Virus record (IMG/VR): IMGVR_UViG_3300025652_000165
Span: 1-40,706 of that record
Strand: one strand, 5' to 3'
Source of the DNA: a virus
DNA length: 40,706 bases
This document shows, piece after piece, positions 6,529 to 14,364 of the stretch. Every line of letters begins with the position of its first letter. Position 1 is the stretch's first letter. A program made the position numbers and the translations under genes. The notes under the pieces were generated by a model. The model worked only from the letters and a program-made list of their open reading frames with translations. It did no database searches and was not told the DNA's origin.

Positions 6529-7467
6529 ATGCAATATAAAAAATTCAATATAACTAAAAAAGATCATTATCAAGAAATTACAAACGCATTTATTGAACTG
6601 TTAGAAAATGAAAAAGGGAACTTTGTTAAAACTTGGCAAGATAACAGTTTAAACGGGCATTATAATATTAAGACTAAAAAAGCTTATCAAGGGACTAATG
6701 TTTTTAGTACGGCTATTAGTAGCTTTAAAAATGGTTTTAAATCTAATGAATGGGGTAGTTTTAAACAATGGCAAGATAAGGGCTTTAAAGTTAATAAAGG
6801 GGTTAAAGCTACTTATATTATATATTTTGAAATGATCGAAAATAAAAAAGCCCAATTAAAAGGTGAAGAAAAAAAACTTATTCCATTATTAAAAGGTTTT
6901 CCAATTTTTAATGCTGATCAAACTAGTTATAAAGATAGTAAAGATTATTTAAAAAACCTTAATTTATTAAAAGAACATGGCAATAAATTAATTTTTAATA
7001 ATAAAAGAATTGATAAAGTAGTTAATAATTCTAAAGCTATTATTAAACATGGGGGCAATAGGGCTTTTTATAGCCCTACAAGTGATTTTATACAAATGCC
7101 CAATAAAGAAAGTTTTAAAGATATTGATAATAATTCAAAAGAAGTAAATTATTATTCTACTTTATTACATGAGTTAACTCATTGGTCGGGGCATTCTTCA
7201 AGATTAAAAAGAGATTTATTTAACAGATTTGGTAGCAATGCATATGCTTTTGAAGAACTAGTAGCCGAAATTTCATCGGGCTTTTTATGTACTATGTTAG
7301 AACTTGTTAAACTTCCCACCCCTAACCATGCTAAATATATTAATAATTGGTTAGAAGTTTTGAAGAGTGATAAAAAAGCTATTGTAAAAGCTTTTGCATT
7401 AGCCCAAAAATCTAGCGATTTTATTTTACAATTTGAAGAAAAGAAAAAGATTAAGAAAGTAGCTTAG
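6529..7467 (+). CDS. ArdC-like antirestriction protein with zincin metalloprotease domain (312 aa)
   Basis: Two domains are visible. The N-terminal part (about 12-115) has the ArdC-type ssDNA-binding layout, with W36, a GxNVF-like motif and W75/W81. The C-terminal part carries the typical AFYSPTSDFIQMPNKESF block (179-196) and a zinc site HELTHWSGH (214-222), with a downstream glutamate in FEELVAEIS (241-249). ArdC proteins are carried by plasmids and phages and protect incoming DNA from restriction. The metalloprotease domain is thought to process other proteins. The start is supported by AAGGGGCTTTA upstream. It is the first gene of an AT-rich plus-strand cassette. About 300 residues is usual for this family. 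Confidence 0.85.
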   Translation: MQYKKFNITKKDHYQEITNAFIELLENEKGNFVKTWQDNSLNGHYNIKTKKAYQGTNVFSTAISSFKNGFKSNEWGSFKQWQDKGFKVNKGVKATYIIYFEMIENKKAQLKGEEKKLIPLLKGFPIFNADQTSYKDSKDYLKNLNLLKEHGNKLIFNNKRIDKVVNNSKAIIKHGGNRAFYSPTSDFIQMPNKESFKDIDNNSKEVNYYSTLLHELTHWSGHSSRLKRDLFNRFGSNAYAFEELVAEISSGFLCTMLELVKLPTPNHAKYINNWLEVLKSDKKAIVKAFALAQKSSDFILQFEEKKKIKKVA

Positions 7468-13338: not shown

Positions 13339-14364
13339 ATGAGAAACCATATAGACCTTTGTTCGGGGATCGGTGGCTTTGCACTAGGATTCTCGTGGAG
13401 TAATTTAAATACTAAACCCAAACTATTCTGTGATACAGAAGAATGGTGTAGGAAAGTCATAGCCAAAAACTTTCCTAATGTACCAATAGCAAATGATGTA
13501 AAGGAGATTGCAAGTGACCCAAAAAGATTTATTCAAGAAAGACCATTCATCCTCACAAGTGGCTACCCATGTCAACCTTGGTCAGTCGCAGGTCATAGGA
13601 GAGGCGAAGAAGACCCTCGCCACATCTATCCGTACATCCAAAGAATTGTTGAACAAGTCAGACCCACTTTTACAGTTTACGAAAATGTTTATGGACACTT
13701 CTCCATGGGACTTGACGAGGTTCTCTTTCAAATGGAAAGCATTGGTTACGCAACGAGGACGTTTGTGTTTCCGTCTAGTTCAATCGGAGCTAGGCACAAA
13801 AGGGACAGGGTTTGGATCATTGGAAGAGACATGGGCGACCCCCAATACAATGGATCATCTTCCACCGAGATCGGAGGAGGCAACGAAGAAATTGCAGAAT
13901 GGACACAGAAAGGGGAGAAAAAGACCGAGCAATCTAAGGGAGCAAGTAGACCCCAACACAGTCAAACTATATCCGACTCCGAGAGCCTCGGATGTGGAGG
14001 GGGGAATGGCATCGAATGTGGAGATCAACAACGGAAGATTCTCGAGGAAGAACAAGGACGGAGTTCGTTGGGGAGTGAAGTTGAGGGATGCCGTGAATCA
14101 CATGGAGAGTTTTCCGACACCAAGAGCCTCGGAGTACAAAGATTGTGGAGCAGTTGGGAGCAAGAGTCAGATTCACATGGAGAAGAGATCATATCTTTGT
14201 GCGAAGATCAAAGATCCCCAGAAACCATCTGGAAAGTTGAACCCTGTGTGGACAGAGTGGTTGATGGGTTACCCAAAAGGGTGGACAGAATTAAAGGATT
14301 AGGCAATGCCATATGTCCTCAAAATGCAATGATAATAGCTAACGCAATTAATAGGAGTTTATAA
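13339..14364 (+). CDS. C5 cytosine-specific DNA methyltransferase (341 aa)
   Basis: The enzyme transfers a methyl group from S-adenosylmethionine to carbon 5 of cytosine in a specific sequence, usually to protect phage DNA from restriction. Motif I is DLCSGIGGFALG (6-17), motif IV GYPCQPWS with catalytic C78, motif VI ENV (115-117), motif VIII RDRVWIIG (155-162), and motif X GLGNAICPQ near 323-331. The region between VIII and X (165-310), where target recognition lies, is short and low in complexity. Local GC rises to 32 of 60 in 14041-14100, against about 38% nearby. A second frame overlaps most of the gene. There is no cognate restriction enzyme gene in the window. Confidence 0.9.
   Translation: MRNHIDLCSGIGGFALGFSWSNLNTKPKLFCDTEEWCRKVIAKNFPNVPIANDVKEIASDPKRFIQERPFILTSGYPCQPWSVAGHRRGEEDPRHIYPYIQRIVEQVRPTFTVYENVYGHFSMGLDEVLFQMESIGYATRTFVFPSSSIGARHKRDRVWIIGRDMGDPQYNGSSSTEIGGGNEEIAEWTQKGEKKTEQSKGASRPQHSQTISDSESLGCGGGNGIECGDQQRKILEEEQGRSSLGSEVEGCRESHGEFSDTKSLGVQRLWSSWEQESDSHGEEIISLCEDQRSPETIWKVEPCVDRVVDGLPKRVDRIKGLGNAICPQNAMIIANAINRSL
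13508..14302 (+). CDS. Second reading frame inside the methyltransferase gene (up to 264 aa), WLMGYP-type
   Basis: The frame shifted by +1 relative to the methyltransferase is open for 795 bases and reads like a known phage protein type often found beside C5 methyltransferases: FSFKWKALVTQRGRLCFRL, three spaced segments WATPNTMD, YPTPRASD and FPTPRASE, and a C-terminal LNPVWTEWLMGYPKGWTEL. The longest opening starts with TTG at 13508 with AAGGAG too close. ATG 13685 or 13691 are later options. Whether it is translated is unknown. Because the family ending (WLMGYP) lines up with motif-X-region codons of the other frame, some similarity could be a by-product of conservation in the main frame. 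Confidence 0.45.
   Translation: MQVTQKDLFKKDHSSSQVATHVNLGQSQVIGEAKKTLATSIRTSKELLNKSDPLLQFTKMFMDTSPWDLTRFSFKWKALVTQRGRLCFRLVQSELGTKGTGFGSLEETWATPNTMDHLPPRSEEATKKLQNGHRKGRKRPSNLREQVDPNTVKLYPTPRASDVEGGMASNVEINNGRFSRKNKDGVRWGVKLRDAVNHMESFPTPRASEYKDCGAVGSKSQIHMEKRSYLCAKIKDPQKPSGKLNPVWTEWLMGYPKGWTELKD

Follow-up and report, generated by a model that had tools for sequence, protein, structure and literature searches.

A 40.7-kb IMG/VR virus sequence (40,706 nucleotides, analyzed over its whole length and here called the window) carries a C5 methyltransferase gene, alpha, in which a second gene, beta, is nested in the +1 frame. The arrangement raises the question whether the +1 frame encodes a protein at all and, if so, whether this protein is unrelated to the methyltransferase or belongs to it. 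A first-pass annotation made from the sequence alone had assigned all C5 motifs to the main frame and another type of phage protein to the +1 frame. The +1 open reading frame (ORF) inside alpha covers positions 13508 to 14302 (264 codons). GTG at 13514, which aligns with ATG in relatives, is the likely start of beta, and TTG at 13508 is a less likely one. The locus comprises the following features:

13339..14364, + strand: alpha, C5 methyltransferase large-domain chain of 341 amino acids with motifs I to VIII and X, without motif IX (PF00145, phrog_363, fold match)
13514..14302, + strand: beta, +1-frame gene with GTG start, 262 amino acids, predicted target recognition and motif IX (open in 276/283, phrog_1008, substitution pattern)
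13501..13506, + strand: Shine-Dalgarno sequence AAGGAG of beta, within alpha, 7 bases 5' of the GTG (kept in relatives)
13339..13833, + strand: alpha residues 1-165, catalytic domain, motifs I to VIII (substitution pattern; mostly high-confidence AlphaFold2 model)
13514..13798, + strand: beta residues 1-95, opposite alpha motifs IV to VIII, constraint on both frames (alpha third-position divergence)
13807..14238, + strand: predicted target-recognition region of beta with three TP modules; in the alpha frame, a variable linker (substitution pattern; alpha disorder)
13832-13855, 13970-13993 and 14111-14134, + strand: TP modules 1, 2 and 3 of beta
14237..14293, + strand: putative motif IX of beta, LNPVWTEWLMGYPKGWTEL (profile windows in monomeric enzymes and E. 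coli Dcm; hhalign)
14278..14358, + strand: alpha motif X region, GLGNAICPQ and C-terminal helices (confident helices; alpha-type substitutions from 14275)

Alpha carries the large-domain motifs and lacks motif IX

Alpha matched phrog_363 (6.9e-55) and PF00145 (3.4e-31), the latter at residues 4 to 168 only. C5 motifs I, IV (PCQ), VI (ENV), VIII and X were found, with invariant residues across 39 relatives. The fold predicted by AlphaFold2 resembles M.HaeIII and M.HhaI over about 167 residues. In this model, residues 1 to 165 are ordered with a dip around residues 81 to 90, residues 177 to 293 have a pLDDT of <50 and no secondary structure and are predicted to be disordered, and residues 314 to 340 form two confident helices containing motif X. 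Motif IX was absent from alpha, as a profile of the beta motif scored no better on alpha chains than background (median, -9.4). With motif IX missing and the PF00145 match so restricted, the main frame does not show the full set of C5 motifs that had been ascribed to it.

The nested pair is conserved in phages and bacteria

Searching IMG/VR with the +1 protein alone yielded at least 586 confirmed relatives. At all of the first 80 loci taken (43 to 100% identity, best segment), the alpha frame was open and stood in the same +1 relation. Scans of bacterial genomes and viruses with distant members and a profile enlarged the set to 283 sequences including the window, of which about 104 were left once redundancy was removed. 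Beta was nested in the +1 frame in 276 of these 283 sequences; five had the parts in a single ORF, and two had a beta free of open alpha overlap. Since nearly all loci were picked on beta, finding the alpha frame open is independent of how they were chosen. Free substitutions and stop codons in the +1 frame, which would speak against two coding frames, are not what is seen at the homologous loci. A Shine-Dalgarno match of at least 5 bases preceded the beta start in 58% of 104 non-redundant nested loci, compared with 6% at control places.

In bacterial genomes, one strict pattern gave 286 confirmed places. Bacteria carrying the pair belong to Bacillota, Bacteroidota, Pseudomonadota, Spirochaetota, Planctomycetota and Acidobacteriota (phyla as labelled, many of the genomes being metagenome bins), and the arrangement is common to phages of Escherichia, Vibrio and Xanthomonas and to plasmids of Enterobacter, Salmonella and Rhodoplanes. 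Some assemblies hold several copies, such as five in a Roseovarius chromosome (L137-L141) and three in Lihuaxuella thermophila (L122-L124), perhaps as repeated prophages. The alpha or beta frame is broken or shifted in L091, L202, L265 and L082, which could be due to sequencing errors or decay.

Selection alternates between the two frames

An open +1 frame might be a mere shadow of the alpha protein sequence and its codon use, and weak +1 matches to the N-terminal part of beta do occur in ordinary monomeric enzymes, where the similarity is partly a shadow of alpha motifs. However, synonymous codon shuffling of the window's alpha produced a +1 ORF of this length in 0 of 1,000 trials, and the same shuffling in 14 other loci gave 0 of 1,000 for 13 of them and 1 of 1,000 for the remaining one. 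The long open frame noticed in the first-pass annotation is thus beyond chance. Also, no target-recognition or motif IX part was found when the +1 frame of monomeric C5 enzymes was scanned.

Among close relatives of the window, the pattern of substitutions changes along the gene. From 13339 to about 13698, third codon positions of alpha are the most variable, except in one 12-codon block, and the pattern is mixed at 13699-13806. At 13807-14274, variation falls on alpha first positions, which are the third positions of beta, and alpha third positions (second positions of beta) vary little, being nearly frozen over most of the stretch. The alpha-type pattern is found again from 14275, over motif X. 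In the overlap with the N-terminal part of beta, alpha third-position divergence is lower than in the 5' non-overlapping part. In the linker region, protein entropy amounts to 1.3 to 2.1 bits for alpha versus 0.3 to 1.8 bits for beta. In 13 of 14 clades with informative pairs, alpha third positions varied less than first positions; the difference lay in the target region, at motif IX or at both. In the L184 clade this held at motif IX only; the L096 clade (three sequences) showed near-equality in the target region and no signal at motif IX. Selection thus switches from alpha to beta and back to alpha along the gene, and the same is seen in most clades tested.

A shadow ORF would leave neither nearly frozen alpha third positions beside varying first positions at 13807-14238 nor a beta more conserved than alpha over the same stretch. 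We therefore rejected a chance or shadow ORF on the basis of codon shuffling, substitution pattern and monomeric controls, and regard its probability as practically negligible. Both frames are under selection, and the +1 frame very probably encodes a genuine protein that is conserved.

The first-pass annotation had further proposed that the enzyme's target-recognition part and a second protein co-evolve in one stretch of DNA. Both frames are indeed selected, but over 13807-14238 the main frame encodes a variable linker, predicted to be disordered, rather than target recognition. The substitution pattern and the disorder of alpha together place target recognition in beta. Along most of the target region, the domain would be encoded in one frame and a linker in the other. 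Any given stretch would thus be selected chiefly for a single product, which would explain the persistence of an overlap of about 800 bases. A jump in GC content noted earlier at 14041-14100 (32 of 60) is correct as counted, but it is not local: GC is 0.45 to 0.50 throughout the overlap (13508-14274) versus 0.355 in the window.

Beta probably provides target recognition and motif IX

Beta matched phrog_1008 (1.4e-23, beta ORF residues 16 to 262). No credible hit came from Pfam, NCBIfam, PADLOC or PDB sequences when these were searched with beta or a beta alignment. AlphaFold2 produced a weak model of beta alone, and a fold comparison with the PDB was without a match. These negative results suit a reading of beta as an independent phage protein (e.g., DNA-binding, nuclease or anti-restriction) that overprints the methyltransferase gene, although a poor model of the lone chain might also be what a partner-requiring domain would give.

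The three TP segments, the LNPVWTEWLMGYPKGWTEL stretch and the repeat pair in the overlap (CCGACTCCGAGAGCCTCGGA at 13973-13992 and CCGACACCAAGAGCCTCGGA at 14114-14133) are present as first described. We built a profile from the last 19 residues of beta and scanned it over 17 monomeric C5 enzymes. Its best window was motif IX in 9 of the 17, some of which are near-duplicates, with few hits significant against shuffled sequences. In E. coli Dcm the same profile selected LTPRECARLMGF, which is motif IX. Furthermore, hhalign returned a single short alignment, located on motif IX (E = 0.08). We tentatively take the WLMGYP stretch of beta to be motif IX.

C5 enzymes divide into a large domain (motifs I to VIII and X) and a small domain (target recognition and motif IX) (PMC3404938). 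An alpha without motif IX and a beta with a C terminus matching it would thus correspond to the large and small domains, respectively. A motif IX-like end found on beta and missing from alpha is not expected of an independent protein, and there is nowhere else in alpha for target recognition. Beta proteins differ in how many (W/F)PTPxAxD modules they contain (L036, L076, L085 and L089 compared with the window), as if TP modules were gained and lost between relatives, which fits a target-recognition region without proving one.

Natural rearrangements tie beta to the methyltransferase

Mycobacteriophage DLane and Gordonia phage Leonard have motifs I to VIII in the same ORF as several LPTPxAxD repeats, motif X and a stretch resembling motif IX, while the first part of beta remains in a shorter +1 ORF. 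The actinophage loci with this layout are L315 (1046-2594) and L319 (785-2558). At three loci (L113, L114 and L246), alpha stops after motif VIII and beta extends into motif X. Finally, the nested beta of L175 (1571-3228) lacks motif IX, but a second beta gene located immediately 3' of alpha contains it. That WLMGYP proteins also exist as separate genes next to methyltransferases, as the first-pass annotation had stated, was borne out by the downstream copy in L175 and the three loci with a shortened alpha, such cases being rare in our sample.

These rearranged joinings tie the beta modules to the methyltransferase, and they suggest that the alpha linker is dispensable. Beta modules in frame with motifs I to VIII and X in actinophages, and a motif X that has moved onto beta in L113, L114 and L246, argue against an independent overprinting protein, which we consider improbable. 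Judged from these comparisons, what the +1 frame encodes is very probably the half of this enzyme that recognizes the target, together with motif IX, and not an unrelated second protein; it is in the assignment of this product, not in its existence, that the first-pass reading of the +1 frame has to be revised.

In the DNA, the motifs follow one another as in a monomeric enzyme, and single-frame versions exist at some loci, so that a normal monomer might also arise by programmed frameshifting, with a +1 shift past motif VIII and a return shift ahead of motif X. Yet this would require two shifts, beta has its own conserved Shine-Dalgarno sequence and start, and L175 carries a separate, complete beta gene. 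We regard frameshifting as very unlikely.

Streptococcus phages suggest a second type of frame-split gene

Totally overlapping methyltransferase ORFs have been reported in the 5093 group of Streptococcus thermophilus phages, with pneumococcal phage MM1 and Tn5252 cited in the same paper (PMC5601072). As in the window, a +1 ORF lies inside a C5 methyltransferase gene and resembles the N-terminal part of beta. In contrast to the window's alpha, however, alpha of 5093 and MM1 is complete, with LTPREC (motif IX) and GNSV (motif X) in alpha itself, and the +1 ORF is short (about 140 codons) and ends with an element of the DILEE-V-KYFLS type. We therefore rejected the possibility that the overlap in MM1 and 5093 is the window's arrangement. 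Loci of this type are L324 (7631-8056), L323 (6212-6640) and L325-L404.

The DILEE-V-KYFLS type element lies in the main frame of the monomeric enzyme of L283, shortly past motif VIII (E = 6.5e-5), and by eye the same element can be recognized in the main frame of E. coli Dcm as LLDPMVEAKYILT. The nested ORF is kept in 77 of 80 MM1/5093-type relatives. Substitutions there follow the beta pattern over the 29 codons that come after motif VIII, and the alpha pattern on either side. The alpha signature is thus back where target recognition and motif IX sit in alpha, which supports the method of the selection map. The comparison suggests that MM1 and 5093 represent a second frame-split type, with a short small-domain element alone in the +1 frame.

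A split methyltransferase as the most probable explanation

The observed anatomy, conservation of both frames, alternation of selection and natural rearrangements are with high probability explained by an alpha and a beta that are translated from a single message, with an internal start for beta, and form one site-specific C5 methyltransferase protecting the phage DNA. Alpha would supply the large domain for cofactor binding and catalysis (motifs I to VIII) plus motif X, and beta, translated from its own internal ribosome site, would be active as the small domain with target recognition and motif IX. The DNA order would remain motifs I to VIII, target recognition, IX and X, with the middle block read in +1 and traversed by alpha as a disordered linker. 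The heterodimer formed by the two chains would methylate a specific site in the phage DNA and would most likely serve to evade host restriction. Positions 6529-7467 of the same phage match the anti-restriction protein family phrog_7245 (E = 1.7e-72), which we count in favour of a protective split methyltransferase.

We also lean towards a broader view in which the window belongs to a widespread and old frame-split C5 class. In this class, parts of the small domain would be encoded in +1 within the gene for the large domain, with selection alternating along the gene and the blocks changing frames. Its variants would be target recognition and motif IX wholly in +1, as in the window; the DILE-V-KY element only, as in MM1/5093; a partial return of target recognition to the main frame, as in actinophages; and a transfer of motif X to beta, as in L113.

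Same-strand overlaps that are long, deeply conserved and seem to code for two indispensable parts of one enzyme are rare. Relatives of the window's arrangement are present in hundreds of phages and bacteria. If the explanation is correct, hundreds of "DNA cytosine methyltransferase" annotations cover half an enzyme, and attempts to express the annotated chain by itself, or to derive the specificity from it, would not succeed. The alpha/beta pair could also serve directly for testing ideas on overprinting, internal translation starts and naturally split enzymes.

Comparison with known two-chain enzymes and nested genes

Of the known systems, the closest in kind is M.EcoHK31I (YGGCCR), whose small subunit is encoded within the large-subunit gene in another frame, like beta in the window. 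This two-polypeptide C5 enzyme has motifs I to VIII and X in its large subunit and motif IX in its small subunit (PMC3404938), a distribution that equals the window's when compared by description, the window's motif IX match being short. The target-recognition domain of M.EcoHK31I, in contrast, is predicted in the large subunit (PMC3404938), whereas the evidence from the window puts it in beta. M.AquI (CYCGRG) is a functional two-chain C5 enzyme that is split in the variable region, as in the window (PMC3404938). Its small subunit carries both IX and X, whereas motif X of the window is on alpha; the motif distribution of M.AquI is resembled by L113, L114 and L246.

Phages Redbud ("g50 internal gene") and K1ind3 ("Mte8-like") have the nested arrangement of the window, and phrog_1008 or inner phage genes are annotated as hypothetical, Mte8-like or DNA methyltransferase. 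A search of the open-access literature for previous descriptions of the nested pair in phages returned only PMC5601072, and the division of labour between the chains was stated in no paper found. Two-chain C5 enzymes, the motif distribution of M.EcoHK31I and the marking of the inner gene by some phage annotators were thus already known. New, within the open-access literature searched, are the breadth of the arrangement, the frame-by-frame selection map that gives target recognition to beta, and the natural rearrangements.
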